Source: Nitrososphaerota archaeon (GTDB lineage: Archaea > Thermoproteota > Nitrososphaeria > Conexivisphaerales > UBA164). From it: a DNA stretch of 40,079 nt. Below, in pieces: positions 1,443 through 15,381 of this stretch. The notes under the pieces were generated by a model. It was not told the DNA's origin. It worked only from the letters and a program-made list of their open reading frames with translations, and did not search any database. The stretch lies in the NCBI GenBank assembly GCA_009903795.1, contig WYER01000031.1, positions 1 through 40,079 on the forward strand, written 5' to 3'. The position numbers and the translations under genes were made by a program. Numbering within the stretch: position 1 is the first letter of the stretch; each line of letters begins with the position of its first letter.

Positions 1443-3134
1443 TCAATCAGTGTTTGTAAGTTTCCTCATTACTTCGTGTAAATGAGAAACCGCGTATCCT
1501 GTTGATTTGCCCGAAATTGCTGAAACACCCGCAGTAATCCCGTGAGCTAACCCTCCACCTAAAGCCCCAGTAAACCCTGTCCATAATCTTTTATGTAAAA
1601 AGCTAGACGCGTTGCCCATAAATCCCTGAACACCGCCTGAAAAAGCACCTAACCACACTGCCGAAGCTACACCCCCAGCAATCATGCCAGTTTCAGAAAC
1701 GATCTGATAAGTAGCGCTCGTGTAAGGAGCGAGAATAGTCACAGCAACCAACGATGTGAGAACTGCCGTAATTGCTACCCACTGAGGCTGAATTCCTGCG
1801 AGCCTGAACATGTTAGCGCTTGAATTCCAATTATTCAAAAGATAAGTTGCCACAGAGAGCATTACGGAAGACAAGATCGTAGCTAGCATTAAACCGAACA
1901 ACGTGTCTTCAATGATCCTTCCTAATTTTTGAGTGTAGTAAAAGTCCCTAAGAGCAATAGAAAGCGGGAACATTACAATCATGCCCGCTAAGAGTAGAAT
2001 TCTCACAGTCCCCAACATGTAAGACATTATCCAAACAATTACCGTGACAACGAAGTACCCAACACCGAGAAGGGTAGTTTCAAGAATTGTGACAGGCGTA
2101 AGAGTGCTTGGAAATATCATGTAAGCTTCTAACAATGCAAGGTTTCCTTGAGCAATTATCCACGCGCCTTGTTGATTCGCCACGCTCGGGTAAGCGAGAA
2201 TTTCAACGTTCAAAGTGTTCATTAAATAAGCAATCTTATCGTAAACGTACGGGAAGATCAGCATAATAAAAATGCCTCCTGCTATTTTTTCAAACACTCC
2301 TAGCAATGATGTAGTTTTGCGCCTGTCAGGAGTGAGAAGGTCAAAAAAAGCAATCGGAATTAACACAATTATAGCAACGATCATGAGAAGGTTGTAGTAA
2401 GGACCTAAAGGCAAAGCAGGATACTCCTGAGAAGGAGAAGTAGCATAAGCGTAAAGCATTGTGTCGTTGAATTGAGGCAAAGCGATGATAGTGTTAAACA
2501 GATCAATAGGAGCCCATTCATTTCCTCCTATGCCCGTAATTTCAGGTCCGATCGGCGTTCCGTTCGTGCTTTCGGGTATCACCTCGTAAACGTAATACGT
2601 GAAACCATCCTTCACGCTCGGGGTTGTGAAGTTCGCAAGCTGTCCGACGTAATAATATTGCTTAGAAAATTCCATAGGAACCGTTTCGTTTGACCCACCT
2701 GGATAATAGAAAGTTACAGAACCGACAAGTTTCAAGGGTGCGGGAATTTCAGAAGATGTAGTAGCCGTGATTGTCGTGTTTGAAGTCGCAGACGCAGAAG
2801 CGGAAGCCGAAGCAGAAGCGCTCACGTTCGTTGCCCTAACCCCTCCTCCCGTTGAAGATGTTTTAGAAGTAGTTGTCTTTGAAACTATTGCGGAATTGTT
2901 CACGTAATACCACGAGCCTCCTATAAAAACAGAACCGTAAGCGTAAGATGCAGGGACTCTCGGATTCACAGCCTGCGTGTTTATCTTATACATCGAAAGC
3001 AAAACTTCTCCGAAAGGACCCGAAAGATAAGCGTGAGTAGGCAAAGGCACAATAAGACCGAAGATCAAAAGAAACAAAACTGCTAAGTAAGAAAACTTCA
3101 AGAACAAACCTTTTGCAGAATTAAAGCTCCTCAT
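1443..3134 (-). CDS. Polytopic membrane protein, CedA/VirB6/TrbL-like transfer channel
   Basis: The protein has 563 residues when started at ATG 3134. A TATA element (TTTTAAAGG, ~3157-3165) is centred 25-27 nt upstream, so the longer frame starting at GTG 3155 would begin inside the promoter. It has an N-terminal signal or anchor (~10-30), a ~210-residue external region with a Ser/Ala/Thr run (SASASASASASATS), and about seven TM helices from ~residue 245 to ~510. A Gly/Ala-rich amphipathic tail follows. This layout resembles VirB6/TrbL and the crenarchaeal DNA-import protein CedA. It ends 32 bp from the ATPase gene on the same strand, and a VirB4-like ATPase lies further along. A role as the membrane channel for DNA transfer is inferred from topology and neighbours, because these families share little sequence. 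Confidence 0.68.
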   Translation of the reverse strand: MRSFNSAKGLFLKFSYLAVLFLLIFGLIVPLPTHAYLSGPFGEVLLSMYKINTQAVNPRVPASYAYGSVFIGGSWYYVNNSAIVSKTTTSKTSSTGGGVRATNVSASASASASASATSNTTITATTSSEIPAPLKLVGSVTFYYPGGSNETVPMEFSKQYYYVGQLANFTTPSVKDGFTYYVYEVIPESTNGTPIGPEITGIGGNEWAPIDLFNTIIALPQFNDTMLYAYATSPSQEYPALPLGPYYNLLMIVAIIVLIPIAFFDLLTPDRRKTTSLLGVFEKIAGGIFIMLIFPYVYDKIAYLMNTLNVEILAYPSVANQQGAWIIAQGNLALLEAYMIFPSTLTPVTILETTLLGVGYFVVTVIVWIMSYMLGTVRILLLAGMIVMFPLSIALRDFYYTQKLGRIIEDTLFGLMLATILSSVMLSVATYLLNNWNSSANMFRLAGIQPQWVAITAVLTSLVAVTILAPYTSATYQIVSETGMIAGGVASAVWLGAFSGGVQGFMGNASSFLHKRLWTGFTGALGGGLAHGITAGVSAISGKSTGYAVSHLHEVMRKLTNTD

Positions 3135-3155
3135 CAAACTTAAGTATAGTGACAC

Positions 3156-3166
3156 CTTTAAAACCC
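3156..3166 (-). promoter_or_regulatory. TATA box of the CedA-like gene
   Basis: On the minus strand GTTTTAAAGGT lies 22-32 nt before ATG 3134. The spacing implies a leaderless transcript and decides the start codon. Confidence 0.6.
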
Positions 3167-3186
3167 AAAACGCGAACTCCCAGACC

Positions 3187-4734
3187 TTATTTCCCGCCGT
3201 AGTATTTCTTCGCGTAGAACTTCTTCAAAGCTTCGAAAAGAGAATGCAAGTCATACCTGTTCTCTGACATCTGCTTCTTCAAAAATTCCATCCTTTCTTC
3301 CATTTCACTCTTCAATCTCGCTTCGTCCCATCCCCACAGGTTTTCGAGCGTCTTCAACCTGACAGAACGAGAAATAACCTCATCAACGCTTTCTGGGTAA
3401 ATCTTATCCTCTTTCGCGTTCCACCTAAAGATTTCCGCAAGCTCACCTGTCAATGGGTTAACTTCTTTTGAAACGATTGCCCTCCTAACGACTTCACCGC
3501 TTTGAAGCCTAACCCTGTTCACTTGCAAAAAAGACCAAACGAGCATCAGTTGTGATTTTCCAACGTTCAAAGGCTCCGTTGTCATTCTCGCAATCGCGCT
3601 TTCGACAGAGTCCCCGTGGAAAGTTGTGAAAGAACCGTGCCCCGATGCAGAAGCCTGAAACAAGAACTGTATTTCTTGACCCCTAGCTTCCCCTACAATA
3701 ACGTAGTCAGGACGGATCCTCAAAGTCAGCTTCGTTAAGTCGAAAATGTCGATGTCAGTAACTTCAGAGCCACCGAACGTGTACCTAGTTTTCAACCTTT
3801 CCCAGTGCTCGTGAGGAAGAGAAAGTTCTGGCGTTTCTTCTACGGTTGCAATTTTCAGGTTTGGATTAATGAGCTGAAGGAATGCGTTAAGCGTAGTAGT
3901 TTTTCCAGAACCCGTTGCCCCTATTATGAACACAAACCCCTTAGCCTCTACGATAAGCCAATAATAAGAAGCGAGCAAAGGCGTGACAGTCCCGCTTTTG
4001 ATCAAGTGCAAAATAGTGAAAGGGTTCTTCGGGAACTTCCTAACGTCAAAAGAAGATCCCGGGAGCGATATCTCAGAGCCGAAAGTAGAAGCAAGCCTTG
4101 AACCGTCGGGCATCGTCGCGTCAACGTAAGGTATTGCTGTCGAAATTGATTTCCCAGAACGCATCACGATCTTTTGAACAAAACGAGAAAGCTCGTCTTC
4201 GCTTTCAAACTTTATGTTCGTGTCCATCCAATCCGCCCCTGGGAACTGCCTGTGTATTATTGCCACAGGTTTGTCCCAAGCTTCGCAAGAAATCTCTTCT
4301 ACATCATCGTCCTTCATGAGAACGTCCACAATGCCATAGCCTAAAGAGTCGCGCACGAGGTAATACTTCAGCTTGTCGTAAGAAGCTTTGAACTCTTCAA
4401 AGACGCCCAAGTCTTCAGAAGCTTTCCACAAAAACTGTTCCAAAAGGGCAAGCTGATCCCCTTCTGCAGGTCTGAAAGCGTAATAAACTGCTTCCATCAG
4501 CTCTGAGTATAAAACTTTTTCGCGGTCGGTAAGCTCGGGTTCGAATGCCGTGTAGTAATATTTAGATTCCGTTCGCGAAATGACAACGTGAACAAGCCCC
4601 ACGTCGTATTCCGTAACAATGTCCCCTACGACTGCGTGCGGGATCGTTCTCACGCGGAATTCGAGGGGTCTTTCTGCGGGCTTCTTTTTCTTTCCTCCTA
4701 AGGACAAATTAATTTGAGGAAGTTTAAGTTTCAT
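3187..4734 (-). CDS. Type II/IV secretion ATPase (GspE/VirB11/TadA superfamily)
   Basis: This 515-aa hexameric secretion-type ATPase has a basic N-terminus and a ~240-residue N-terminal domain. Then come Walker A GATGSGKTT (~272-280), the acidic/Asp box (EETPELSLP, ~299-306), Walker B with VIVGEARGQE (~345-354) and the His box GHGSFTTFH (~365-373). These are the hallmarks of the archaeal GspE/FlaI/VirB11 family. It should hydrolyse ATP at the cytoplasmic membrane to drive assembly of a pilus or transport of substrate. It is followed by the CedA/VirB6-like gene and shares a symmetrical promoter with the divergent Cas4-like gene. With VirB4 and VirB6-like partners, a VirB11-type role in DNA transfer is more likely than an archaellum. 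Superfamily certain; specific role inferred. Confidence 0.9.
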   Translation of the reverse strand: MKLKLPQINLSLGGKKKKPAERPLEFRVRTIPHAVVGDIVTEYDVGLVHVVISRTESKYYYTAFEPELTDREKVLYSELMEAVYYAFRPAEGDQLALLEQFLWKASEDLGVFEEFKASYDKLKYYLVRDSLGYGIVDVLMKDDDVEEISCEAWDKPVAIIHRQFPGADWMDTNIKFESEDELSRFVQKIVMRSGKSISTAIPYVDATMPDGSRLASTFGSEISLPGSSFDVRKFPKNPFTILHLIKSGTVTPLLASYYWLIVEAKGFVFIIGATGSGKTTTLNAFLQLINPNLKIATVEETPELSLPHEHWERLKTRYTFGGSEVTDIDIFDLTKLTLRIRPDYVIVGEARGQEIQFLFQASASGHGSFTTFHGDSVESAIARMTTEPLNVGKSQLMLVWSFLQVNRVRLQSGEVVRRAIVSKEVNPLTGELAEIFRWNAKEDKIYPESVDEVISRSVRLKTLENLWGWDEARLKSEMEERMEFLKKQMSENRYDLHSLFEALKKFYAKKYYGGK

Positions 4735-4782
4735 GCTTTTAAATGCGATCGTGGTTTAAAAGCAAAAATTTGATTGCTTTAC
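4735..4782. promoter_or_regulatory. Shared divergent promoter with palindromic TATA region
   Basis: The 48 bp between two divergent starts contain the inverted repeat GCTTTTAAA ... TTTAAAAGC (4736-4744 and 4755-4763). The element at ~4753-4763 is ~20-30 nt from both ATG 4734 (minus) and ATG 4783 (plus), so one AT block could serve as TATA box in both directions. A second TATA-like copy lies next to ATG 4734. Confidence 0.55.
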
Positions 4783-5442
4783 ATGAGCGAAGAAGAAAAG
4801 AAGCTTGAAGAATTATTGAAGCAAGGACTAGTTTCTTTGCACGAAAAAGAAAAGAACAGTCACAAAACGGAAAAAGGCGTGTATTATCCTTCCGCGCTAG
4901 GTTCTTGCTTGAGAAAGCAATATTACACTTACACACTCGGAGAACGCGTTTCTCCTGAAGAACTAGTTATTTTCGCAACAGGAAAAGGTGTTCACGAAAC
5001 AATAGCGAGAGCGTTCGGCGAGGTTGCGACAATAGAAAAAGAAGAAGAAAACATTTCACTTGAAATTTCACCTGCAATAAAACTCAAAGGAAGAATCGAC
5101 CTTTTGATTGCCGACTATGACGGAAAGAAGTACTTGATTGAAGCGAAAAGCACGAGCAAAACTCCCGACACACCTTTCGAAGAACACGTTTTACAATTGC
5201 AAGTATATATGCATGCTTTGAATTATGAAGAAGGGTTCATTTTGTATTGGAATAAGGTTACAGGAGAAATCAAAGTTTTCAAGGTTCAAAAAAATGAAGA
5301 AGTTCTAAAAAACGTTTTTGAAAGGGTCAAAAAGCTGGATTATTATGTTTCAAAAAATGTCCCACCAGAGCCTGAAGCAATACTCAAAGGCAGATTTTGG
5401 GAATGCGAAAAATGTCCTTTCTTGGAACTCTGCATACGATAA
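4783..5442 (+). CDS. Cas4-like/RecB-family PD-(D/E)XK exonuclease with Fe-S cysteines
   Basis: I start this 219-aa protein at ATG 4783 (MSEEEKK), not TTG 4774, from the shared promoter spacing. The nuclease core is GKGVHE (H71), GRIDLL (D106), YLIEAKST (E120, K122) and QLQVYMHAL. One Cys near the N-terminus (SCLRKQYY, C42) plus a C-terminal CEKC-x5-C triad make the four ligands expected for the 4Fe-4S cluster of Cas4 and related nucleases. Such enzymes cut single-stranded or flapped DNA ends. No cas genes or CRISPR array occur in the window, so this is a stand-alone copy on a mobile element. Processing of transferred or replicating DNA is a reasonable inference. Confidence 0.85.
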   Translation: MSEEEKKLEELLKQGLVSLHEKEKNSHKTEKGVYYPSALGSCLRKQYYTYTLGERVSPEELVIFATGKGVHETIARAFGEVATIEKEEENISLEISPAIKLKGRIDLLIADYDGKKYLIEAKSTSKTPDTPFEEHVLQLQVYMHALNYEEGFILYWNKVTGEIKVFKVQKNEEVLKNVFERVKKLDYYVSKNVPPEPEAILKGRFWECEKCPFLELCIR

Positions 5443-5475
5443 AAAGTTTTTTATTTCTTATTTTTTGTTTTTTTC
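5443..5475 (+). terminator. T-rich terminator between convergent genes
   Basis: Runs of T (up to seven) follow the Cas4-like stop codon directly, as in archaeal factor-independent termination. No hairpin is needed or evident. Confidence 0.5.
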
Positions 5476-6106
5476 AACGACCAAGATGCTTGTCTGGAAT
5501 TTCAAACACTCTCGCGAAAGACATAGGCGTTATTCTGAAATTGCCCACAGAAACAGGAACGAAAATAATTTCGCGCGCACTCTGAGGTTGCGAATTCAAT
5601 CTCCCAACATCCTTAACAACAAACTTGAAAGTTGAATTGCCCGAAGGAGGAAAGATTGTGATGAAAGACCCATTGTGACTCAAAACGAAAGACGTAATAT
5701 TCTTGTCCTCTATAACACCTACTAAGAAAGAAGAATTTTTCAACACGTGCTCATGCGAAACGAACAAAGGAACAGACGTTTCATTTTTTGCTACAAACGT
5801 TTGATTTCCTATTTTGATAACATGAAACGGGATTGAAAGGTTCAAATATGTCACTCCATCATAAACCCCAATCGTTCCTATCACAATTTCAAACGACTTT
5901 TTATGAAGCTTTCCAACAGGTGCAATAGGTAAGCTCGTGTTGAAAAGTCCAACATTAAACAAACCATTAGAATGTGTCTTAGGATTCAAAAGAACGACCT
6001 TCGCATGATTCCCTAAAGGTTGTGCGAAAGCCGTCGAACTAACAAACAATAACCCGAATAATACGAGAACAATCGCACTTTTTAACAAACCATAACGAGC
6101 GCTCAT
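5474..6106 (-). CDS. Secreted protein of unknown function
   Basis: This 210-aa protein has a clear signal peptide: a hydrophobic core at ~10-25 and a likely cleavage near TAFA-QP. The mature part is predicted beta-rich and has several N-x-S/T sequons, as expected for an archaeal surface or extracellular protein. There is no C-terminal membrane anchor. The start is ATG 6106. TATTTAAAAACCC on the plus strand (6126-6138) gives a minus-strand TATA ~25 nt upstream, so the mRNA is leaderless. It is preceded on the same strand by a membrane-anchored surface protein. No family is recognised. Within a transfer module it could be an external pilus or surface component, which is inference from position only. 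Confidence 0.75.
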   Translation of the reverse strand: MSARYGLLKSAIVLVLFGLLFVSSTAFAQPLGNHAKVVLLNPKTHSNGLFNVGLFNTSLPIAPVGKLHKKSFEIVIGTIGVYDGVTYLNLSIPFHVIKIGNQTFVAKNETSVPLFVSHEHVLKNSSFLVGVIEDKNITSFVLSHNGSFITIFPPSGNSTFKFVVKDVGRLNSQPQSAREIIFVPVSVGNFRITPMSFARVFEIPDKHLGR

Positions 6107-6147
6107 GCTTTTAAATGAAAAGGCTATTTAAAAACCCAAAATCGCTT

Positions 6148-7353
6148 TCAACCAGTAGTGAAAGAATAGTTTTCATAATACGGAGGCATCGAAAGAACAC
6201 GGAACGAGAAAACTTCATTCGGAGGGACAGTAAGAATTAACGAAACATTCTTACCGTTCACTAACGCAAGCACACCTTCATACTCGAACGTCACACGCTC
6301 GCCTGGATAAATGACATACGAGTTTAAGGAATTATTAAAAACGCTCTCACTCGAAGCGTTCGAAGACGCGAATTGTGAAACAAACGAAAGAACATGGCGC
6401 GGGCTTGGAAATGCAACAAGCTGTGTCCCGTTCACAAAGAAAAGAACTGGCAACGAAACATTGAAGCTCTTATGAACATTCCACTTCACGCTAAAATAAT
6501 TTTGCGATTTGTTTAATGAAAAGTGTAAAACACTCCTAAGAGTTACGTTCCACAAAGTTTGCACTGAAATTGCATAAACTGTCACAGGCTCGTTCCCCAC
6601 GTTTTTCAGTGAAATATAAAAGACCGTCTCGTTCCCCCGCGAGTAAAGGCTCACGGCTTCAAGGGTAAGATTCGCGCTTTCTCTTTCAAGTTCTTTTGAA
6701 AGATGCTTCGGAATCACGAATACCTGACCCACGCTCATTTTTTGCGAACCGTTCACTTCTTTCGCTGTGAAAGGCATCGCAAAAACAACAGGTGTAAGAA
6801 TAAAACGCAAACTCTGTCCCGCATAAGTAACAACAACGTGAGGTCGCAAATCAATCAACGCGCCTATTGTCCCGTTCACGAGAGAAACGTTCGCGACGGG
6901 AATCTTCAAAACAGAGCTGGGAACAAAAACAGAATACTTAGAACCGTTTATTTCAATCGAGACGCTTGAAACAAAAAGCCTTATCTGATTCACGCTAACG
7001 TTCTTCGGAAGCGAGAACGTCGCAATAATCTTTGAAACGTTTACGAGCGAAAGCAAATTTACAGAACCGCTTATGTTCGCGAAATAAGGCGAAGAATTAG
7101 TTATCAGCTCGACGCGTGAATAATTCAAAAACAAAGCTGAAGTGCCTGCGGGAACGGACGGAGGGTCAGTAAGCGCAACAGCAAAAGGAGATAAAGAAGC
7201 GCGCGTTGAAGTGCTTGTTGAAGTAGTCGAAACCGAGGTTGAAGACGAAGAAGGAGCTTTAGCAGGTTGAAGCGTTAGCATAAAATAACCTACTATACCT
7301 CCTAATACAATAAGCCCGACAATCAATAAAGCAAGCAAACTTTTCACGTTCAC
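6148..7353 (-). CDS. Membrane-anchored surface protein, DUF4382-like
   Basis: This 401-aa protein has one N-terminal TM anchor (~5-27) and a Ser/Thr-only linker (~35-52) likely to be glycosylated. The large beta-rich ectodomain carries about twenty N-x-S/T sequons. The stretch starting FAVALTDPPSVPAGTSALFL resembles the opening of DUF4382-type surface domains (a TD(A/P)P motif then a beta strand). A second Ig-like part follows (VSLYSRGNETVFYISLKNVG). Start GTG 7353 is chosen because TTTTTAAAGG (7373-7382) lies ~25 nt upstream; GTG 7347 is the alternative. It is probably exposed on the cell surface. Link to DNA transfer is by position only. Confidence 0.72.
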   Translation of the reverse strand: MNVKSLLALLIVGLIVLGGIVGYFMLTLQPAKAPSSSSTSVSTTSTSTSTRASLSPFAVALTDPPSVPAGTSALFLNYSRVELITNSSPYFANISGSVNLLSLVNVSKIIATFSLPKNVSVNQIRLFVSSVSIEINGSKYSVFVPSSVLKIPVANVSLVNGTIGALIDLRPHVVVTYAGQSLRFILTPVVFAMPFTAKEVNGSQKMSVGQVFVIPKHLSKELERESANLTLEAVSLYSRGNETVFYISLKNVGNEPVTVYAISVQTLWNVTLRSVLHFSLNKSQNYFSVKWNVHKSFNVSLPVLFFVNGTQLVAFPSPRHVLSFVSQFASSNASSESVFNNSLNSYVIYPGERVTFEYEGVLALVNGKNVSLILTVPPNEVFSFRVLSMPPYYENYSFTTG

Positions 7354-7440
7354 GAACTTTAATAAAAAACCCCTTTAAAAACCAAAAAGCTCGTTCTTTT
7401 GCAAAAATCTATAATGCAAACTAACACAAAACTAAAAATG

Positions 7441-7467
7441 GAAAAAAAAATAAAAAAGAAAAAAACA
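7441..7467 (-). terminator. T-rich terminator downstream of the 110-aa gene
   Basis: On the minus strand this is a stretch of T runs (up to nine) directly after the stop at 7470. Confidence 0.45.
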
Positions 7468-7469
7468 TT

Positions 7470-7802
7470 TCACGCGGGGACGATATTCGCAATCGAAACA
7501 ATATCCCTTGCTTTTTTAGAAGCAGTGAAAAGTTCTGGATTCGGGCTAAAAGAAATTCCACGCTTTGCCAGTTTTCGGAAAATTTCTTCTAGCTCCTCTT
7601 TTCTTCTTACCGTAAAAACCCAATATCCATTTTCTTTTTCAGAAATATTTTTTGTTTTCATAAAAGCATTCCTCTCAGATTCAAAAAGTAGATTTCCGTA
7701 TCTGTCTTCTAAAATTTTTTCGGTCGAAATTATAAGAACATTCCCTTTCCTTCCGACCAATTTGGCAAAATTCCCCCACGACCCAAATTCTAGTGTATCC
7801 AA
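7470..7802 (-). CDS. Small basic protein, unknown function
   Basis: The frame is open to ATG 7883, but a promoter block almost identical to that of the gene at 8508 lies at 7822-7855, inside the open frame. The first usable in-frame start after it is TTG 7802, giving 110 residues. The 137-residue version from ATG 7883 remains possible. The protein is alpha/beta, with VLIISTEKILEDRYGN, an aromatic strand ENGYWVFTVRRKEELEEIF and a basic C-terminus. No family is recognised. The overlapping plus-strand frame at 7399 is rejected because promoter and terminator both point to the minus strand. A T-rich terminator follows. Confidence 0.55.
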   Translation of the reverse strand: MDTLEFGSWGNFAKLVGRKGNVLIISTEKILEDRYGNLLFESERNAFMKTKNISEKENGYWVFTVRRKEELEEIFRKLAKRGISFSPNPELFTASKKARDIVSIANIVPA

Positions 7803-7821
7803 TCTCTCTCTACCTCTTCTA

Positions 7822-7855
7822 TTGTACCCTATAATGAGAACTCCCTTTAAAAACT
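7822..7855 (-). promoter_or_regulatory. Promoter block, copy 2 of a repeated type
   Basis: TTTTTAAAGGGAGTTCTC followed by ATTATAGGGTACA matches the block before 8508 at all but a few positions. It contains the TATA box (7844-7853) and the expected transcription start. Confidence 0.55.
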
Positions 7856-7897
7856 CAAAAACCCGTTCTGTGCAAAAATGCATGGCTTTATCTAATT

Positions 7898-7917
7898 GAA
7901 AAAAAAATAACGAAAAC
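7898..7917 (-). terminator. T-rich terminator downstream of the 90-aa membrane protein gene
   Basis: On the minus strand a run of nine T lies within 20 nt of the stop codon at 7918. Confidence 0.4.
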
Positions 7918-8190
7918 TTAAAACAGTGTTTTGAATGTTTCTTTCAAAGCTTTTGTCCTTGAAAGGCTTTTGCGTTCTCTAAAGAAAACGTATCCACCTA
8001 GTATACTCCCGATAAAAATTGTTCCAAAAAATCCAGGGACGGCAATGGTAACAAATAAAGGCGCGAACGAAAGCGAATGAAGAACAAACAACCCCGATAC
8101 AAAAAGCACCCCAAACCAGAATAAAATAGCCTTTTTCATCCACACCACCTCATAATCCGCCTTCACTAACTCATCAACCTCAAAAATCAT
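7918..8190 (-). CDS. Small membrane protein, two TM helices
   Basis: The protein has 90 residues from ATG 8190. Two hydrophobic helices (~18-42 and ~45-66) are separated by a short turn, followed by a basic tail (RERKSLSRTKALKETFK). A TATA element (GGGTTTTTAAAGC) lies ~35 nt upstream, so there is a ~10-nt leader. A second start, ATG at codon 18 (8139), is preceded by GAGGTG at a 6-nt spacing, a better Shine-Dalgarno, and would give a 73-aa protein that begins directly with the first TM. Small two-TM proteins such as CedA1/CedA2 accompany the Sulfolobales CedA/CedB DNA importer. The resemblance here is of size, topology and context only. Confidence 0.65.
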   Translation of the reverse strand: MIFEVDELVKADYEVVWMKKAILFWFGVLFVSGLFVLHSLSFAPLFVTIAVPGFFGTIFIGSILGGYVFFRERKSLSRTKALKETFKTLF

Positions 8191-8267
8191 TTTTCACCAC
8201 AAAACAACATACGAAATCCGCTTTAAAAACCCATAACAAAAAATCTATAATCTAAACTAACATTTGA

Positions 8268-8319: not shown

Positions 8320-8508
8320 TCAATACACAAGTACTTTTTTGTATCCATGCATCTCAAGAAACTTTTCTGCTTCTGTTAACGAACTGAACGATTTTTCACC
8401 AAAAAAATCGTACACGAAGATTTGTCTCTTTTCCTGAAAAACAATTGCAAAGTATTTTTTGTTTTCTGTCATCCACTTTTCTACTTGTATGTCTGCTTTA
8501 GCATTCAT
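8320..8508 (-). CDS. 62-aa protein, unknown function
   Basis: This is a small alpha/beta protein, MNAKADIQVEKWMTENKKYF onward, with a strand pair (YFAIVFQEKRQIFVYDFFG), a helix (LTEAEKFLEMHGY) and a final strand. No membrane segment or known motif is present. ATG 8508 follows a well-placed promoter (TTTTTAAAGGGAGTTC, 8525-8541) and a T-rich terminator follows the stop, so this short gene is well supported as a separate transcription unit. It lies just downstream of the VirB4-like operon on the same strand. Function unknown. Confidence 0.7.
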   Translation of the reverse strand: MNAKADIQVEKWMTENKKYFAIVFQEKRQIFVYDFFGEKSFSSLTEAEKFLEMHGYKKVLVY

Positions 8509-8542
8509 TGTACCTTATAATAAGAACTCCCTTTAAAAACCC
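8509..8542 (-). promoter_or_regulatory. Promoter block, copy 1 of a repeated type
   Basis: GGTTTTTAAAGGGAGTTC followed by TTATTATAAGGTACA ends immediately before ATG 8508. Near copies precede 7802/7883 and the leaderless TTG 23919. A looser version precedes GTG 39298. Confidence 0.6.
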
Positions 8543-8565
8543 AAAACCCCCGTTCTTTGCAAAAA

Positions 8566-10407
8566 TCAGCGCGGTTTTGTCGTGTACCTCGCAAGCTCCT
8601 CTTCAAGCACGTAGTTATAGAAAGGAACTTTCCCTTCAGGAGTGCTTATGATACCATAGCCCGGTTTCGAGGAAAGGATGAATTTCGACTCGTCCTCCGA
8701 AAGGTTCAGCATCGTGTTCAACTTTTCAAGCGACGCGGAATCCTGCCTCAGAATGATCTTAGTAGCCGAGTTCTCTATCAAAATTCTTCCAGGACCGTTA
8801 GCAAAATCCGAAACGAGCTGTGATGCAAGAATGAAAGAAACCCCGTAGTGCCTCCCAGTCCTCGCGATTTCAGGAATGTATTCGACAGCCATCGGAAAGA
8901 AAGGTTTGCCAGTCCTCGGGTTTGTTTCCACAAAAGCCCATCCTTCATCTACCACAATGAATTTCCTCCGAGAACGTATTTTTTCTTGTTTTACAGTGCT
9001 CCAAACGAGAGCAAGCAATAAGAACGCGACCCCATCCCTCACGAAATTAGAAGGTATGTCCGAAAGAACGAAAACTGCTCTATCATAAAGTTCAAGTTCT
9101 TTTCCAGTAAAGAACCTCATAAAAGGCTCTAATTCAGTTTCAAGCCTTTTCCTCAAATTTCCGTCAGCCTTAGAAATCAAATCACGAACGGTTTTTGCCT
9201 CCTTTGAAAGTGCAAAAAGTTCTATCGCTTCTTCAGAGCCTTCTTCGATTTTTGCTATCGTTCTTATGAATTCGCCTGCGTCCCTTTTGCTTTCAAAAAC
9301 GAGAAACGGGTCTAAAGGAAATTCGCCTTCTTCAAACCTAAAAACCTGAGCACCTATATCTTTTGCGAGCGAAGTTTCAAAAGTACCGTCCGAGCCTAGA
9401 GCGTATTCTGGCTTTACTATCGAGTCAAAAATATACATGATAGCGCGGTCGTCCTTCTGTGCGAGTCTTGAAAGCCATACCTTGAGCAAAAGAGATTTTC
9501 CGTAGCCTGTTAAACCTAAGATTGAAACGTTGTAGTTCTCTCTTTCAAACACGTCAAAAATAACTGCGTTCCCTGTGAAAAGGTTTGTGCCTAAGAACAC
9601 GCCTTCTGGGTCTATTAAATCCATTCCTGCGAAAGGGAAGAAAGGAGCGATGCCTGAAGAAGTTACGTAAAGCCACCTTCCTTGAGCCCACGAAGGAGGT
9701 TTCAAATAATAAAGCGCGTCCTGAACGTAATTAGGTCCCTCTAAAAAATCCATCGCTTTCAAAAGTTCTATTGACTTATCGTGAAGTTCTTTCATGTTTG
9801 CACCTTTTACCGTAATGACAAGGCGAATTTTGAACAACTTTTCAAGCCCCGAAGCGATGTTATACCTTGCTTTTTCCAAAGATTGTAAGTAAAGCTGAAG
9901 CGAAGGATCTGCCCTGTCCCCGAGCATTTTAACCTTTTCGTTTAGAGAGTGATACTGCTTTTCAATTATTCGCGCGTTTGAAGTAGGTTGAATGTCCAAG
10001 CGTATTTCGTGAGAAACGTCGTAAACGCGCGTAAGAAAGCCGTAGGGCAACACTTTTGGGAGCGCGTATGCATTGAAAGATCTCGCAAACCCGTCCTTTA
10101 GAATCATGAAGTTACGCACGACGCCTTTGATCTCTAATCTAGGGATTTCGCTAACTTTCACGAAACGAAAGTCAGAAGACGCAAGAACACTGTCGATGTT
10201 CTCTTCGCTCGCAATGAAATATCTTTTGTAAGGTTGCCGAATAATAAGATCACGCACGGGAACCTCGTTTATTGCGGTCGTGATAAAGAACGAAGCAGGA
10301 GCCGTAAGCGAGTTCACGAGGCGAACGAAGTCCGAAATAACGGCTTGCTGTTCTTCTTCTCTTAGATTGAAAAAATTCACAGGCTTAAGCTCGTAGAAAT
10401 CAACCAT
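8566..10407 (-). CDS. VirB4/CedB-like HerA-FtsK superfamily ATPase
   Basis: This 613-aa conjugation-type ATPase has an N-terminal ~270-residue domain typical of VirB4/TrbE. Then come Walker A GLTGYGKSL (~298-306), an insertion region, and Walker B KFIVVDEGWAF (~482-492). The downstream RTGRHYGVSFILASQ strand is usual for VirB4. Proteins of this type power DNA or pilin movement in type IV secretion; the archaeal relatives CedB and TedB drive DNA import. ATG 10407 overlaps the preceding gene by 8 bp, so translation is probably coupled in the 11.9-8.6 kb operon. With VirB6-like and VirB11-like genes nearby it forms the core of a transfer machine. The family is firm; direction of DNA movement cannot be told from sequence. 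Confidence 0.9.
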   Translation of the reverse strand: MVDFYELKPVNFFNLREEEQQAVISDFVRLVNSLTAPASFFITTAINEVPVRDLIIRQPYKRYFIASEENIDSVLASSDFRFVKVSEIPRLEIKGVVRNFMILKDGFARSFNAYALPKVLPYGFLTRVYDVSHEIRLDIQPTSNARIIEKQYHSLNEKVKMLGDRADPSLQLYLQSLEKARYNIASGLEKLFKIRLVITVKGANMKELHDKSIELLKAMDFLEGPNYVQDALYYLKPPSWAQGRWLYVTSSGIAPFFPFAGMDLIDPEGVFLGTNLFTGNAVIFDVFERENYNVSILGLTGYGKSLLLKVWLSRLAQKDDRAIMYIFDSIVKPEYALGSDGTFETSLAKDIGAQVFRFEEGEFPLDPFLVFESKRDAGEFIRTIAKIEEGSEEAIELFALSKEAKTVRDLISKADGNLRKRLETELEPFMRFFTGKELELYDRAVFVLSDIPSNFVRDGVAFLLLALVWSTVKQEKIRSRRKFIVVDEGWAFVETNPRTGKPFFPMAVEYIPEIARTGRHYGVSFILASQLVSDFANGPGRILIENSATKIILRQDSASLEKLNTMLNLSEDESKFILSSKPGYGIISTPEGKVPFYNYVLEEELARYTTKPR

Positions 10408-10588
10408 TCTCGCTCCCTTCAGGCTTGATCATAAAAGGAAAACCGTGAAGCTCTAACAAAACGTGCTTGTCCTTTTTGTCCTTCACTGTTATTATGTTAT
10501 CTAGAATTTCAATGTCAAATTTATTGCTTTGTAAGGCAAAAAATACCTTTCCGTCCCCTGTGTAAACGATTACTTCAAATTCGCTCAT
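10400..10588 (-). CDS. 62-aa beta-rich protein, unknown function
   Basis: The protein is small and predicted mostly beta: alternating hydrophobic strands FEVIVYTGDGKVFFALQS, IEILDNIITVKD and HVLLELHGFPFMI. No membrane segment or known motif. It overlaps the VirB4 start by 8 bp, indicating co-translation. A TATA-like CTTTTTAAAGC (10616-10626 on the minus strand) lies ~30 nt upstream, so the VirB4 pair may also be transcribed separately from the TFB genes above. No function recognised; an accessory role to the VirB4-like ATPase is inferred from coupling. Confidence 0.7.
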   Translation of the reverse strand: MSEFEVIVYTGDGKVFFALQSNKFDIEILDNIITVKDKKDKHVLLELHGFPFMIKPEGSENG

Positions 10589-10589
10589 T

Positions 10590-10793
10590 TTATCTCAAGT
10601 TCAGATGTAAAGTTGCTTTAAAAAGCAAAAATAGAAAAGGCGAAGCAGGAATTTCCATGTGTTTTATATATTCCATCACGAAAGCGTAAAGCAAAATGCC
10701 GAGCATGAGCGTGATTATAATTTCAAGCAAAATCCAGAACCACGAGCGTTCTTTTTTCTTTTCACGAAAATATGGATAGCTCACAAAGGTCAC
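10590..10793 (-). CDS. 67-aa membrane protein
   Basis: This short protein has a basic N-terminus (REKKKERS), one strong TM helix (SWFWILLEIIITLMLGILLY, ~17-36) and a weaker hydrophobic segment near the end. Start GTG 10793 overlaps the TFB stop as GTGA, the classic coupling arrangement, so it is co-expressed with the TFB and probably VirB4. Its size and position next to a CedB-like gene recall the small membrane subunits CedA1/CedA2 of crenarchaeal DNA import. Sequence similarity cannot be judged here. Confidence 0.68.
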   Translation of the reverse strand: MTFVSYPYFREKKKERSWFWILLEIIITLMLGILLYAFVMEYIKHMEIPASPFLFLLFKATLHLNLR

Positions 10794-11560
10794 TTCTCAA
10801 ATTCTTCCGCGCGTAACAAAAGCCCGTTCATTATTTTGTTTTCCTTCATTCTTTTGATAGCCAAACGCATGTCCACTTCAGAAATCCCTAAGACTTCTGC
10901 AATTTCAAACTGCCTCAGTTTATGCCCGTTCTTCTGAGATGCGAGATAAAGAGAAGCCCCCGCGCCTACTATCGGGTTAATCCCTTGAGGCAAGCTTTCT
11001 GAAATTTTCAAAGCTTCACGAACGATGCCTTCTGAAACGCCTAATTTCGGAGCAAACAAAAGAATGTAATCTTTTGCAGTTTTCTTCGGAACCTTAATGC
11101 CTAATGCCAAACTGAGTTCTTTCACGTATTTGTAAATGTCGTGCTTTGAGACTTTGAACGTTCTCGAAAGCGTATCGTAAGAAATCGTAAAACCGTGAAT
11201 CCTTGAAGCAACGAGAACGAGCGCAAGCGAAAAAGCTTCTAAATCACCAAACCGATAACCTGTTTCAAGAACCTTCTTTTCAAGCGTTAATGCCTCTTCA
11301 CGAACGATTTCTGGAAGATGCAGAACCTCACAAATTTGTTGAACCCGCGCCCCATAACGAGCGTAAAAATCAACCGATTCGTGTTTTGCAATTCTTTCAG
11401 AAAATTTGAAACCATAAGCAGGAACGGAACCCAAAAGATCCTCCTTTCTCACGACGGGACTTTCTTCGGGCTCTTCAGGAAAAACGTAACCGCACGAAGC
11501 ACAAACGAATTCCCAGTCTACCTGCAAAATTTTAGAAGAACCACAAAGAGGACACTTCAA
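10790..11560 (-). CDS. Transcription initiation factor TFB paralogue (archaeal TFIIB family)
   Basis: The protein has 256 residues with an N-terminal zinc ribbon (CPLC-x13-CASC, ~3-22) and a short linker, then two cyclin-like repeats. The second repeat contains NPIVGAGASLYLASQ, the signature found in TFB/TFIIB. It is shorter than chromosomal TFBs (~300 aa). TTG 11560 is the only start that overlaps the upstream stop (TTGA) and keeps the zinc ribbon. TFB recruits RNA polymerase to TATA/BRE promoters, so a mobile-element copy could direct transcription to the element's own stereotyped promoters (inference). It sits in the middle of the transfer operon, between a nuclease-like gene and a small membrane protein. 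Confidence 0.88.
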   Translation of the reverse strand: MKCPLCGSSKILQVDWEFVCASCGYVFPEEPEESPVVRKEDLLGSVPAYGFKFSERIAKHESVDFYARYGARVQQICEVLHLPEIVREEALTLEKKVLETGYRFGDLEAFSLALVLVASRIHGFTISYDTLSRTFKVSKHDIYKYVKELSLALGIKVPKKTAKDYILLFAPKLGVSEGIVREALKISESLPQGINPIVGAGASLYLASQKNGHKLRQFEIAEVLGISEVDMRLAIKRMKENKIMNGLLLRAEEFEK

Positions 11561-11904
11561 CGTTTCTCACCCAAAAGCGCTTCGAAAAACTTAGTCACGA
11601 GCAAATTTCTCACTTCAGGATAGTTCTTGTGCTTGTAGACGTATTCTGCAGGAAAAGTCCACACGTACCCGTGCCTCGCAAAATAAAACCCAGCTTCCCT
11701 CACTTCAGGAAAAGAACCGTGTTCGCGCGAAATCTGAGCAAGCACTAAGTAACCCACAATCTGTCCCCAATAATACTTCGTGATTTCGCACTCGTGAACC
11801 GTCTTAATGTCTATCAAAGCATCACCCCGCAATAAGTCAGCGTCCGCGCGGTCTTGAAAGAGCGCTTTCACTTTCGGGTCTTGAATGTATTTAGAAAAGT
11901 CCAC
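11557..11904 (-). CDS. PD-(D/E)XK nuclease-like protein, 5' end separated by IS insertion
   Basis: GTG 11904 gives 115 residues, but the frame stays open upstream to the IS junction at 11934, adding FEFPKRWILD. The core GDALIDIKT with a following Tyr/Gln-rich helix (ITKYYWGQIVGYLVL) looks like the D...(D/E)xK and QxxxY motifs of Cas4/RecB-type nucleases, with Asp in the usual Glu position. Joining the flank beyond the IS (at 13426) restores an in-frame start, giving M-N-Y-K-F-E-F-P-K-R. So the TnpB element probably landed four codons into the gene. Expression may now rely on GTG 11904 or read-through. Its stop overlaps the TFB start, so it heads the TFB-VirB4 operon. Nuclease call is moderate. 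Confidence 0.6.
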   Translation of the reverse strand: MDFSKYIQDPKVKALFQDRADADLLRGDALIDIKTVHECEITKYYWGQIVGYLVLAQISREHGSFPEVREAGFYFARHGYVWTFPAEYVYKHKNYPEVRNLLVTKFFEALLGEKR

Positions 11905-11934
11905 ATCTAGAATCCAGCGCTTCGGGAATTCAAA

Positions 11935-13425
11935 CTGACCTCCTCCCCGCCTTAAAAGGCGAGGGTTCCCTGAGGTCTCAAGGGTTACACCCCTTTAATG
12001 GGTGCTACTCTGTTGTGATCTACTATGAAAGATATAGGCTTCTTTATTTTTGAAACGATTACGTTCACTGCTTTTTTGAGAATGTTCAAAGCGCCGTTGA
12101 GGTCTGAATGAAGCCTGTGTCCTTTAGGGCAAATAACTATTCCCCTAGGTCTTCTTTCGACTTCTACATTATCATGATAAGCACAGTACTTTGAAGTATT
12201 ATACTCAACTACTTCAAACACTTTCATGCCATATTCTTGAGCCTTAAGTTCTATTGCATCCATTAACTTGCGATAAGACCACACATTTACTGTGTACTTA
12301 TTGCCCTTCTCCTGAGCTATCTCAAAAGGGTAGCCTAAGTATATAGTTGAAACGCCTAGCCCATGCAACTCTTTTATTAAGTGTGAAGCTAAGTTCCTGT
12401 ATAAGTGACGAAGCCTTCTCCTTAATTTCCCGTGCAACCTCCTCTTCTCTTTTAATAGCTCTTCATATGCTTCAAGTTCGCCCATGTTTTTCGTTTTGTC
12501 AGCTAACGATTGTACTTCTGCTATCTTCTTTTCAAAGTAGAAATAATCCTCCTTAGTCCTAACGCCTTTGTACAGCAACCAAGTTCCGTCTTCTACTATT
12601 ACGCTTGCCAAAACGTTAATGCCTAAGTCTATTGAAGCCATTTTGTTTCCTTTAGGCGATTCAACTTGAACGCTTTTCCTTTCACCGTGAACGATATATT
12701 TGCTTTTATTTCCCTTTTTAGTTATTTCAACTCCTACATCAACAGGGATTGAAGCGTACCATGCGTTCTTAGTTTCGTCGTAGTATATCTCAAGCCTACC
12801 TTGCTTTCCGTACCACTTTAACCTGCCTACGAAATAAATTTCAAGCTCAAAGTCCTTGAGGATTAACTTATGGTTCTGCTCGTCCACAACGTACCTGTCT
12901 TGTCTTATCACGAGCATTAGCTTTCTCTTCTTTGTTTCCCTGTCTTTCCAATATGAAGGTGGGCTAACGCGTTTCATGAATGGCGGTAACTTTCCTTCTT
13001 TCTTCAGCTTTAGCAAGGAAAAGAATGAGTGCCAAGCTTCGTTGTTCTTTTTCATGACTGCTTGAGCATTAGCGCTACCTAATTTATCCTTATACTTTTC
13101 ATAGTATTTGTCCTGCGTTGTATCGAAGTCCACGTGATGTTGCTGGAAGAATTGTTGCCTCCTTTCGTAGTTAATTTCATTAAAGAGTTTTGCTGATATG
13201 TTCGCTAACTTCTTAAGCTTTCTTTCTTGAAAACCGTTCGGGAGAAGACGCACAACGTTTGTCCTCTTATTTGAATACGTAACTTCGTAGATGCCCTCCT
13301 CTGGCATTGCGGAAGAATTCGGCTCCCGCTCCTCATGTCCTAAGAGTTGACCAGAGGAGAGCATTTCAAAACAAAAATAGCAGTTTTAATTTAAAAGCTT
13401 TTGCCCCGCCCTAGAAGGGACGAGG
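11935..13425 (-). mobile_element. IS200/IS605-type element carrying only tnpB
   Basis: The element is ~1.49 kb. Its right end is the hairpin CTGACCTCCTCCCCGCC/TTAAAAGGCGAGGG (11935-11961). Its left end is the hairpin GCCTCGTCCCTTCTAGGGCGGGG (on the minus strand, 13403-13426). There is no tnpA, so movement would depend on a partner in trans. The 3' part of tnpB plus the right end is where a reRNA/omega RNA would be made, with a guide reading into the flank at 11934 and below. No target duplication is seen, as expected for this family. Removing it restores a plausible N-terminus for the interrupted nuclease-like gene. Confidence 0.75.
11985..13364 (-). CDS. tnpB: TnpB RNA-guided nuclease (IS605 family OrfB)
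   Basis: This 459-aa protein has a helical N-terminal half and a RuvC-like domain with its three acidic positions: SIDLGIN (~245), GYPFEIAQ (~345) and HSDLNGALNIL (~420). The zinc-finger region between them reads KYCAYHD ... ICPKGHRL, so the usual CxxC pairs are CxxH and CxxxH. That may be a variant metal site or a weakened finger. TnpB is an RNA-guided endonuclease that cleaves the donor site after excision and promotes element retention. The frame is intact, so the protein may be active. A degenerate relative lies at 34545-34817 and derived end sequences at 1389 and 17275. Confidence 0.9.
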   Translation of the reverse strand: MLSSGQLLGHEEREPNSSAMPEEGIYEVTYSNKRTNVVRLLPNGFQERKLKKLANISAKLFNEINYERRQQFFQQHHVDFDTTQDKYYEKYKDKLGSANAQAVMKKNNEAWHSFFSLLKLKKEGKLPPFMKRVSPPSYWKDRETKKRKLMLVIRQDRYVVDEQNHKLILKDFELEIYFVGRLKWYGKQGRLEIYYDETKNAWYASIPVDVGVEITKKGNKSKYIVHGERKSVQVESPKGNKMASIDLGINVLASVIVEDGTWLLYKGVRTKEDYFYFEKKIAEVQSLADKTKNMGELEAYEELLKEKRRLHGKLRRRLRHLYRNLASHLIKELHGLGVSTIYLGYPFEIAQEKGNKYTVNVWSYRKLMDAIELKAQEYGMKVFEVVEYNTSKYCAYHDNVEVERRPRGIVICPKGHRLHSDLNGALNILKKAVNVIVSKIKKPISFIVDHNRVAPIKGV

Positions 13426-13635
13426 CTTGTAGTTCATTTTGTCATAACGAACGCGAACATAGATCTGTTTGAATATTATGAAGGAGAAAAAGAACCTTTG
13501 AGAAGCATCAGCATCGCAGTTTGCATTCAAGGTGTATCTACGGATGAAAAGGTAGACATTATTTTCAAGCTGAACAAACTACTATATATTTCGCTTCCAG
13601 ACGTCCCTGCACATTTTATATATGAGTGCCCGTGA
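13426..13635 (+). pseudogene. 3' fragment of a small gene cut by the TnpB element
   Basis: The plus-strand frame is open from the IS left end to TGA 13633-13635 and encodes ~67 residues (HFVITNANIDLFEYYEG onward). Its C-terminal 45 residues resemble the broken gene at 24037: RSISIAVCI / HRSIAVEIC, then I-x-x-LNK-L, then a Pro/Ala stretch and a final (E)YE. It has no start codon, so it appears truncated at its 5' end. The gene family is unknown. It occurs twice here and both copies are broken. It converges with the membrane protein gene ending at 13653. Confidence 0.55.
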
Positions 13636-13652
13636 ACAATTTTGCACGATCT

Positions 13653-14906
13653 TCAAGACAGCACAGTTTTTTCGCGAATTGAAACAAACCAGCTCTCGAA
13701 TTCAGGCTTATTATTTTCAAGAATAACCCCGTTCTGCCTAAAATACTTCGTAGCGTCGTCACTTACAAAAATCCTTATCCGAGAACCGTCGAAATAAACA
13801 TCAACAGCACCTCTTTTAGGAAAAGCAAGAAGGCTCTGTTGCGAAAGTTTTGGAAATGAAACAGCTTCAAGAATCTCATTAGACGCTTCTTCTTGAATAC
13901 CCCACGGCTGTATCGCTTCAACCCTTTCGCCTAAGAAATTCAAAGTCCTGCCTGTCGAAGGAAGGGACAAGAAAGAAGGAAGCGTGCGCGGAGTTGCAAA
14001 AAAGAACGGAGGCTCGACACGCGTTCCGAAATAGTTAGGATAAGCGAACGCAGGTCTTTCGTGTTGCACAAGCCAATAGAAAAGCGCGGGGTTTTGAGTT
14101 TCAAAAACTACTAAGTGATCTAACTCATCCGAAGCCGTCGCGTGAATTTCATAAGGGTCTCCTTCAACAATCCCGAATATTGAAATCGCAAACACGTTCG
14201 AAGACAAAAGCTCGTTCACTTTCTTAATACGATCATCCAAAGTCGAAGCCCAAACGAGAGGCAAAGGCTTATACTGAAGCATACCCTTTTCGTTCAAAAG
14301 CTTCCACTTTAAAAACTCGAGATACTGTTGCGGATGAACCTCCTGAAAGAAAATTTGCACAAACATACGCTCATTTGAAGACTCAGCAAAAGAAATGAGC
14401 TGATCTATAAAAGGCGTTTTTGTCTCGGGCAAAGACATAATGTGAACATCTTTCAAGCCGAAATAAAACATTCTAAAAGTAGGCTCCACGGGGGTCGGAG
14501 ATGCATTCGTTTGCTCTGAAGGTGTTTGCGAAACGGACTGAGGAGGAATACACGCGTGACCTTTGCGTGGATAAGGCAAAACGTAAAGACGTGAAGACGA
14601 AGCGGGAATTCCTAAGAACGCGGGCAAAGAAAGGACAACCGCAAGAGAACCGACTAACTGTAAGATAAGACTTTCGTAAAGCCCGAAAAAGAGCGCAATA
14701 ATGCTAAGCACTAAGCCTGAAAGAGTAATAAAAAGCCACGCGCGGTTAGAAGGCTCGTTCTTAGAGAGAACGTAATTCATTCCTAACGCGCGAAATATTT
14801 CATTCCACGACGTTCGCTTGCAGAGGTGAAAAGGACGCGAAAGGTCAAAACGATAGAGTAAGAAATAACCTCCAGCAATAATGAGAACAAATATAGGGAA
14901 TTGCAT
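13653..14906 (-). CDS. Three-TM protein with large soluble domain, transfer region
   Basis: This 417-aa protein has TM segments at ~3-19, ~58-77 and ~79-98, a Pro/Ser/Thr linker (~115-140), then a ~270-residue soluble alpha/beta domain without a Walker motif. The soluble part has VFAISIFGIVEGDPYEI and a C-terminal strand pair (VDVYFDGSRIRIFVSDD). This organisation (small membrane domain plus cytoplasmic or external domain) would suit a VirB8-like or coupling-like component, but no family motif is recognised. ATG 14906 has TTTTAACC/TTTTTAAG ~20-28 nt upstream, implying a leaderless mRNA. It is the first gene of the minus-strand transfer block. Confidence 0.72.
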   Translation of the reverse strand: MQFPIFVLIIAGGYFLLYRFDLSRPFHLCKRTSWNEIFRALGMNYVLSKNEPSNRAWLFITLSGLVLSIIALFFGLYESLILQLVGSLAVVLSLPAFLGIPASSSRLYVLPYPRKGHACIPPQSVSQTPSEQTNASPTPVEPTFRMFYFGLKDVHIMSLPETKTPFIDQLISFAESSNERMFVQIFFQEVHPQQYLEFLKWKLLNEKGMLQYKPLPLVWASTLDDRIKKVNELLSSNVFAISIFGIVEGDPYEIHATASDELDHLVVFETQNPALFYWLVQHERPAFAYPNYFGTRVEPPFFFATPRTLPSFLSLPSTGRTLNFLGERVEAIQPWGIQEEASNEILEAVSFPKLSQQSLLAFPKRGAVDVYFDGSRIRIFVSDDATKYFRQNGVILENNKPEFESWFVSIREKTVLS

Positions 14907-15375: not shown

Positions 15376-15381
15376 TATAGT

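Follow-up and report, generated by a model that had tools for sequence, protein, structure and literature searches.

A probable ~77-kb integrative conjugative element with a VirB4-type transfer channel and an Ups-like pilus in an archaeon of the class Nitrososphaeria

The stretch of DNA analysed in this work (the window, 40,079 bp) comprises bases 1-40,079 of contig C25, which has a total length of 133.6 kb. The features listed below lie in the window, except for the last two, which are found further along the same contig.

3-371 (+): tyrosine recombinase/integrase, last 122 aa, carrying the RHTSAT...GWKIGS...Y motif and a zinc ribbon
1443-3155 (-): VirB6-like channel protein, 570 aa (topology, synteny, homologues in relatives)
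3187-4734 (-): archaeal type IV pilus-type ATPase, FlaI/GspE2-like (T2SSE E=5e-33; NCBIfam; tree)
4774-5442 (+): Cas4-like nuclease (cas4 57 bits, cut-off 65)
5474-6106 (-): 210-aa single-TM surface-type protein, not conserved in the loci of relatives
6148-7353 (-): 401-aa single-TM surface-type protein with DUF4382 (Pfam E=8e-6)
7918-8190 (-): 90-aa protein with two predicted TM helices
8566-10407 (-): VirB4-type conjugation ATPase, 613 aa (plasmid matches, PDB match, tree)
10590-10793 (-): 67-aa protein with a single predicted TM helix
10790-11560 (-): TFIIB-like transcription factor, TFB (Pfam TFIIB E=5.5e-15)
11557-11904 (-): 115-aa ORF (48% identity over 64 aa to a protein of relative L002)
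11985-13364 (-): TnpB (IS605 OrfB) insertion (Pfam E=1.5e-30)
13653-14906 (-): 417-aa protein with three N-terminal TM helices and a soluble domain (17-member family)
35628-38372 (-): plasmid/phage-type primase-helicase (TIGR01613 211 bits; D5_N; LigD_Prim-Pol E=0.01)
39335-39685 (-): ribbon-helix-helix protein (RHH_1 E=1.6e-4)
39761-39957 (no strand): repeat cluster, two identical 78-nt copies with 70-nt inverted arms
64,015-65,862 of the contig: TraG/VirD4-type ATPase (TrwB_AAD_bind and TraG-D_C domains)
73.6-74.7 kb of the contig: ParB

The integrase, whose zinc ribbon lies on the window part, continues leftward onto contig C31, where its N-terminal 311 aa are encoded (Pfam Phage_integrase E=1.4e-14); bases 1-121 of C31 are the exact reverse complement of the first 121 bp of the window. 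With the two contigs joined on the basis of this 121-bp assembly overlap and of a split permease gene, the element measures ~77 kb, with its right limit at ~76.0 kb on C25, and the window holds the left ~40 kb. The insertion sits in an APC-permease gene next to tRNA-Pro; the two pieces of the permease gene are found at C25:75,959-76,204 and C31:997-2070. The same tRNA-Pro with an uninterrupted permease, that is, an empty site, is present in three genomes of the same genus (G020, G035 and G051), and VirB4, the 417-aa protein and TraG are missing from two of these element-free genomes (G020 and G035). The integrase, the insertion into the permease and the intact permease copies within the genus therefore point to an integrative conjugative element (ICE) of the thaumarchaeal type, of which the window is the left part; we put the probability of this reading, based on sequence comparison, at about 0.9. 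Its spread between cells is very probably conjugative, by means of a channel for DNA transfer together with a pilus of its own that resembles the Ups pilus of Sulfolobus. The parts that can be recognized include the integrase and empty sites, primase-helicase, VirB4, TraG/VirD4-type ATPase, Ups-like pilus genes, ParB and TFB, the core genes being dispersed across ~75 kb. The initial annotation had also proposed a mobile, conjugation-like module related to type IV secretion systems (T4SSs) on a primase-helicase element, and this much is supported here. As it had noted for the window, no relaxase family turned up when the proteins predicted for the element were scanned; the same holds for other archaeal conjugative elements. 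Nor was a prepilin peptidase identified in the element, and a search of viral contigs gave no match. The tRNA-Pro was rejected as the attachment site: a search for a repeated copy of its 3' end was negative, and it is the neighbouring permease gene that has been split.

The element might instead be a decayed island, once conjugative and now immobile. The TnpB insertion lies next to a truncated nuclease-like ORF, a second TraG copy on contig C33 (89% identical) is degenerate and carries stops, and the VirB3-like gene described below is cut short by a stop codon (codon 169 of about 187), so that this copy may be impaired, unless the stop is a sequencing error. Yet the frames of the integrase, VirB4, VirB6, TraG, pilin, UpsF and primase genes are all intact, and the empty sites in three genomes of the genus suggest a fairly recent insertion; we regard loss of mobility as quite unlikely.

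Among the genes of the putative transfer channel, the identification of VirB4 in the initial annotation was borne out. The protein matches those of the Sulfolobus conjugative plasmids pNOB8 and pKEF9 over its full length (27-28%) and that of the 103-kb Thermococcus nautili 33-3 plasmid (25%), shows 44-59% identity to homologues in relatives, and aligns with the VirB4 structure PDB 4ag5 (E=4e-13). In the tree it grouped with conjugative VirB4s, in a clade separate from TraG, and it scored just 33.6 bits against the CedB equivalog model (cut-off 700). Judged by these comparisons, it is a VirB4 of the monoderm conjugation type and not a CedB. The polytopic protein was likewise correctly described as having VirB6 topology: one N-terminal TM helix or signal, a loop of ~210 aa, six C-terminal TM helices and a Gly-rich tail are predicted, a topology that would also suit CedA. 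It is 39-40% identical to its counterparts in L003 and L004, has 12 homologues across the class, and its gene adjoins that of a VirB2-like pilin in L043, L044 and L046. A VirB2-like pilin and a VirB3-like protein are encoded on the same contig, beyond the window, and the VirB3-like profile detects the two-TM protein encoded before VirB4 on the 33-3 plasmid (E=8e-4). The VirB6- and VirB3-like proteins thus named form conserved families of fitting topology and synteny; the names VirB6 and VirB2 denote topology and synteny alone. VirB6 proteins of known structure or name gave no sequence match to the 570-aa protein, and reference VirB6 gave no profile match. In profile searches, the VirB6-like and pilin families had no counterpart among solved structures, and the AlphaFold model of the VirB6-like protein (three sequences submitted) was unusable, with a pLDDT of 41. 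Homologues of VirB4, VirB6 and the secretion ATPase occur in related genomes at 39-69% identity, which argues against a chance assemblage.

The secretion ATPase gene lies 31 bp upstream of the VirB6-like gene. Its product was rightly recognized as GspE-type, but the suggestion that it restores a VirB11 did not hold. It scored 324 bits against the NCBIfam model for FlaI and 97.9 bits against that for VirB11 (cut-off 249.95), and the tree placed it on the side of the archaeal type IV pili (support 100/99), apart from VirB11/TrbB and CpaF. Judged from tree and scores, the ATPase belongs to an element-specific clade beside FlaI/GspE2. Across the class this clade co-occurs with VirB4, and it is accompanied by an UpsF-like platform and class III prepilins. 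In the present element two UpsA-like genes, an UpsF-like gene and the VirB2-like gene occur in this order, all in plus orientation, at 43.3-46.8 kb; the Ups-like pilus genes are interleaved with those for secretion. The scores of UpsF (365 bits) and of the UpsA-like pilins (75 and 57 bits) lie below the equivalog cut-offs of 400 and 130, respectively; these are clear relatives of the Ups proteins, comparable to Ups in how they might work. The gene order could also mean that the FlaI-clade ATPase serves the T4SS as a functional stand-in for VirB11, with platform and pilins in one hybrid machine, an arrangement in keeping with the fact that, in more than one lineage, the ATPase gene is a direct neighbour of a T4SS gene (VirB6 here; VirB4, at ~95 bp, in G078 and G063) and with the succession of pilin, platform and VirB2-like genes. 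However, the ATPase co-occurs with the usual partners of a pilus ATPase, and neither ATPase nor platform exists on pNOB8 or on the T. nautili 33-3 plasmid, so that the T4SS core is generally independent of both; we consider a hybrid machine unlikely.

No VirD4 is visible in the window, as was stated before, but this does not extend to the element: the TraG/VirD4-type gene lies 24 kb past the window edge, and its apparent absence is therefore an edge effect. The P-loop of this soluble ATPase is near residue 10, and 20 of 21 homologues have no predicted TM helix. In relatives, the gene of the 417-aa family is mostly found directly upstream of traG (within 93 bp in 5 of 15 pairs and within 3.4 kb in 11 of 15, one of them divergent), whereas the two are 49 kb apart in the present element. 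By analogy, the 417-aa protein may supply the membrane part of a coupling protein made up of two proteins, such as TraI/TraJ of pIP501 (PMC4981023), in which the VirD4-type ATPase is also soluble and, as in the relatives of the element, the gene of a membrane protein lies just upstream. The 417-aa family showed no match to solved structures in a profile search and no homology to the N-terminal parts of the TraG-type proteins of pNOB8 and 33-3, and the AlphaFold model (three sequences submitted; pLDDT 38) was unusable. An hhalign match (97%) to the protein encoded upstream of TraG in G202 was rejected: the alignment used had drawn in a member of the family, which made the comparison circular.

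Each of the 12 genomes tested from the order, element-free ones included, contains an orthologue of the Cas4-like gene, and elsewhere this gene is never near VirB4. As every genome tested has the chromosomal orthologue, the gene is not a transfer component, which removes the role in strand processing once suggested for it; by sequence it is a copy of a gene found on chromosomes of the order. The presence of a Cas4-like gene with VirB4, a VirB6-like protein and a secretion ATPase would befit a Ced-like DNA importer that has become mobile, has regained a true VirB11 and uses Cas4 to process the DNA, yet we hold such an importer to be very improbable. Apart from the Cas4-like gene being a chromosomal-type copy, the placement of the ATPase with FlaI/GspE2 refutes VirB11, the CedB score is low, a TraG/VirD4-type coupling ATPase exists outside the window, and integrase and empty sites mark a mobile element, unlike the chromosomal, non-mobile Ced locus. 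Since Ced and Ted arose from T4SSs by domestication (PMC9905601), deriving the element from Ced would also reverse the direction of descent.

Krupovic et al. reported in 2019 on thaumarchaeal ICEs, NCAV2-E1 and NitIsl-E3 among them, that encode VirB4, VirD4, VirB6, VirB3, TadC, FlaI, pilins, TFIIB, ParB and a primase-helicase (PMC6563490). The element is a well-preserved further example of these; the machine itself is not new. Integration with empty sites in relatives, the gene list (VirB4/TrbE with VirD4/TraG, TadC/FlaI/pilins, TFIIB, ParB, primase-SF3 helicase), the lack of a relaxase, the non-syntenic core and the comparable size (their median is 64 kb) are all shared. Unlike those ICEs, it resides in a different host lineage and in an APC-permease gene, lacks an identified prepilin peptidase, and has TFIIB and ParB ~62 kb apart, whereas in most, though not all, of them TFIIB is directly upstream of ParB. 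The Sulfolobus plasmids share, besides VirB4, a TraG-type ATPase, ParB, the lack of a relaxase and, in pNOB8, an integrase; on the other hand, pNOB8 has no type IV pilus-type ATPase or UpsF platform, and its TraG (~1025 aa) has ~290 residues before the P-loop, which is N-terminal in our case. Neither the type IV pilus module nor a 417-aa homologue was detected on the 33-3 plasmid. Ced/Ted with Ups in Sulfolobales and Thermoproteales would work similarly, combining a T4SS-type channel and conjugative pilin with an UpsA/UpsE/UpsF aggregation pilus, but these are domesticated cell systems, whereas the element carries both functions together with a VirD4-type ATPase.

In the mechanism that we propose, the integrase would excise and insert the element and the primase-helicase would replicate it. 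Contact between cells would be made by the Ups-like pilus, with its UpsA-like pilins, UpsF-like platform and FlaI-clade ATPase, in the way that Ups pili serve Ced. The TraG-type ATPase, for which the 417-aa protein is perhaps the membrane anchor, would pass the DNA into a channel of VirB6, VirB3 and VirB4, which a VirB2-like pilus would extend. Conjugation without a relaxase in archaea is a poorly understood process, and no report of cell-to-cell transfer of thaumarchaeal ICEs was found in the literature examined; what is gained here is a bounded ~77-kb ICE with an integrase, a target with natural empty sites and an almost full parts list. Two questions can now be tested: do Ups-like pili belong integrally to the conjugation machinery of archaea, and does the coupling protein consist of two separate proteins? 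More tentatively, and with the odds rather against it, conjugative elements throughout Nitrososphaeria might share one machine, a T4SS with a dedicated Ups-like pilus, its own ATPase lineage and a coupling protein divided into a 417-aa-family membrane subunit and a soluble ATPase, and could be the source type of chromosomal Ups and Ced. If so, the paired chromosomal systems were possibly domesticated from mobile elements of such a kind.

The surface proteins, small membrane proteins and TFB of the initial annotation are all present, but the stretch is not one minus-strand block, because the Cas4-like ORF reads in the plus direction; the TnpB gene also breaks it. No homologue of either the 90-aa or the 67-aa protein was found in relatives, and the former is not the homologue of VirB2 or VirB3. 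TFB, a typical gene of thaumarchaeal ICEs (PMC6563490), has homologues in L004, L040, L041 and L066. The 115-aa ORF resembles only the C-terminal part of the 284-aa L002 protein, which has a PD-(D/E)XK-like motif; the missing N-terminal part was not found in the translated flanks and was probably lost at the TnpB insertion. The primase-helicase, with a P4-family D5/SF3 C-terminus and a weak primpol domain, is 37% identical to that of L002 and represents the replication module, and the repeat cluster by the primase and ribbon-helix-helix genes is a candidate origin of replication or transfer.

The transfer genes in the window belong to an element that extends beyond it. With the TraG-like ATPase of L004, a locus in a related genome, as query against the genome, a homologue was found at 64,015-65,862 on the window's own contig, C25, outside the window, in which the initial annotation saw no VirD4. 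This contig is 133,624 bp long; its first 40,079 bp are the window, and the two share coordinates. At about 76,000 it runs into an APC-permease gene, next to a tRNA-Pro gene, that resembles its homologues over no more than the first ~67 codons; in three genomes of the same genus (G035, G020 and G051) tRNA-Pro is followed by an intact permease gene. The remaining part of the permease lies on another contig of the genome, C31, from about base 998, and window positions 1-121 are the exact reverse complement of C31:1-121. A tyrosine integrase is divided between C31 and the window, and the element ends have in common a short core, CATG(G/A)CGG. Because the permease and the integrase are both split, the tRNA-Pro/permease pair is intact in relatives and the contigs overlap by 121 bp, the element, as read from the assembly, is an integrated unit of ~77 kb with the integrase at its left end; the predicted C31-C25 join rests on the overlap and the split permease.

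Features of the element and its ends (contig coordinates; strand where assigned)
C31:935 to 1, tyrosine integrase, N-terminal part (Phage_integrase, E=1.4e-14)
3-371, tyrosine integrase, C-terminal part
1443-3155, minus, VirB6-like protein of the channel, 570 aa
3187-4734, minus, 515-aa secretion ATPase
8566-10407, minus, VirB4
13653-14906, minus, 417-aa protein
42,470-42,907, minus, UpsA-like prepilin
43,332-43,868, plus, UpsA-like prepilin
43,957-44,391, plus, UpsA-like prepilin
44,421-46,334, plus, UpsF-like platform
46,415-46,804, plus, VirB2-like two-TM pilin (55% to L002 and L004, loci in relatives)
64,015-65,862, TraG/VirD4-type ATPase
near 71-73 kb, further prepilin-like genes
72,252-72,758, plus, VirB3-like protein
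73,621-74,748, minus, ParB
75,481-75,873, plus, RHH protein
76,251-76,326, tRNA-Pro(ggg), adjoining the partial permease gene

The element belongs to a kind described previously, the thaumarchaeal ICEs, whose gene list comprises VirB4, VirD4, VirB6, VirB3, TadC, FlaI/PilT, prepilin peptidase, pilins, TFIIB and ParB, with an AEP-SF3 helicase in some (PMC6563490). Scans of its proteins revealed no relaxase, a feature it shares with these ICEs and the Sulfolobus plasmids, both reported to lack one (PMC6563490). To this the analysis adds both ends of the element together with its empty sites, the exclusion of VirB11 and Cas4 from the parts list, pilus genes that are Ups-like and interleaved, and the hypothesis of a split coupling protein.

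The 515-aa ATPase had been read as VirB11-type, possibly a restored VirB11. Against A. fulgidus GspE2 its score is 276 bits and against FlaI 212, versus 55 for VirB11, and the tree unites 20 element-borne homologues in a single clade (98/94), neighboured by FlaI, GspE2, a haloarchaeal homologue and the host's chromosomal paralogue. This clade and the FlaI/GspE2 side are split from VirB11/TrbB and CpaF (100/99), a grouping that the initial annotation had itself named as evidence against its reading; scores and tree thus rule out VirB11. The companions of the ATPase are a platform resembling UpsF, at 365 bits where the cut-off is 400 (ArlJ reaches only 35), and UpsA-like prepilins with scores of 75 and 57 bits for a cut-off of 130.

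These pilus genes are interleaved with those of the channel. The ATPase gene lies 31 bp from VirB6, and two UpsA-like genes, the UpsF-like gene and the VirB2-like gene stand in a row, all on the plus strand. Among related genomes, a single run in G131 holds ATPase, UpsF and VirB6, and about 95 bp separate the ATPase from VirB4 in G078 and G063. Plasmid pNOB8 and the 33-3 plasmid, unlike the element, have neither this ATPase nor the platform. The VirB6, VirB2 and VirB3 assignments, otherwise based on topology, are supported by adjacency in relatives: VirB6 with VirB2 and VirB3 with VirB4 (L043, L044, L046), and VirB3 and the pilin by VirB4 in L004. The VirB3-like gene (72,252-72,812) is interrupted at codon 169 by an in-frame stop, past which same-frame homology to relatives continues.

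VirB4, for its part, is not the proposed CedB, whose profile gives only 33.6 bits. The full-length matches of VirB4 are in Sulfolobus conjugative plasmids (27-28%) and the 103-kb T. nautili 33-3 plasmid (25%), and its closest solved structure is a bacterial VirB4. A tree groups together the VirB4s from elements of Nitrososphaeria, from archaeal plasmids and from Bacillota, with TraG apart (100/100); of 400 genomes sampled across the class, 64 have relatives of this VirB4.

The proteins named initially are present at their positions, but not as one minus-strand block: the plus strand carries the Cas4-like ORF (4774-5442), and a TnpB gene (11985-13364) breaks the stretch. Nor does the Cas4-like gene, once suggested for strand processing, appear to be part of the machinery. 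Each of the 12 genomes tested from the order has an orthologue, among them element-free ones and this genome itself (contig C5, 60%), and none of these orthologues is near VirB4. The gene looks like a captured chromosomal one. The 115-aa ORF adjoining TnpB matches just the C-terminal part of a 284-aa L002 protein with a PD-(D/E)XK-like motif.

The 417-aa protein, from a family of 17 members, has three N-terminal TM helices followed by a soluble domain. Its gene is mostly just upstream of traG in relatives (of 15 pairs, 5 lie within 93 bp and 11 within 3.4 kb), but at least 20 kb away in this genome, G029 and G008. The TraG-type ATPases start with the P-loop and, in 20 of 21 homologues, have no predicted TM helices, whereas that of pNOB8 has ~290 residues ahead of it. 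At roughly even odds, the two proteins may together constitute a coupling protein, by analogy with pIP501 TraI/TraJ, for which a two-protein arrangement has been proposed (PMC4981023); no direct structural or sequence homology backing this was found. Contig C33 (242-1201) carries a further TraG copy, truncated and containing stops, that is 89% identical to the element's own; it is a remnant of a second related element.

Near the TraG gene is a DndC/PAPS-reductase-like protein (62,726-63,673) adjoined by a DUF932 protein, and genes of the PAPS-reductase family and of DUF932 are likewise present on the Thermococcus 33-3 plasmid. The element also carries cargo at 67,209-69,400, NadC (quinolinate phosphoribosyltransferase) with an MFS transporter, as is a restriction-modification set at 29754-34556, a Type IIG/Eco57I-like restriction-methyltransferase (1146 aa) with an adjoining PD-(D/E)XK protein. 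A block of clearly lower G+C (15000-29000; about 0.29-0.39 versus 0.37-0.47) holds an AAA_14 ATPase, exonuclease-like, calcineurin-like phosphoesterase, DHH and metallopeptidase-like proteins, and is perhaps separately acquired cargo or a defence block. A 78-nt sequence that occurs in two identical copies and has long inverted arms (39761-39957), adjoining RHH and primase-helicase genes, is a candidate replication or transfer origin. A TTTAAA-centred motif recurs shortly 5' of start codons (432, 4731, 6103, 7350, 8508, 23924, 35144 and 39300), and probably marks promoters of leaderless transcripts common to the element's genes.
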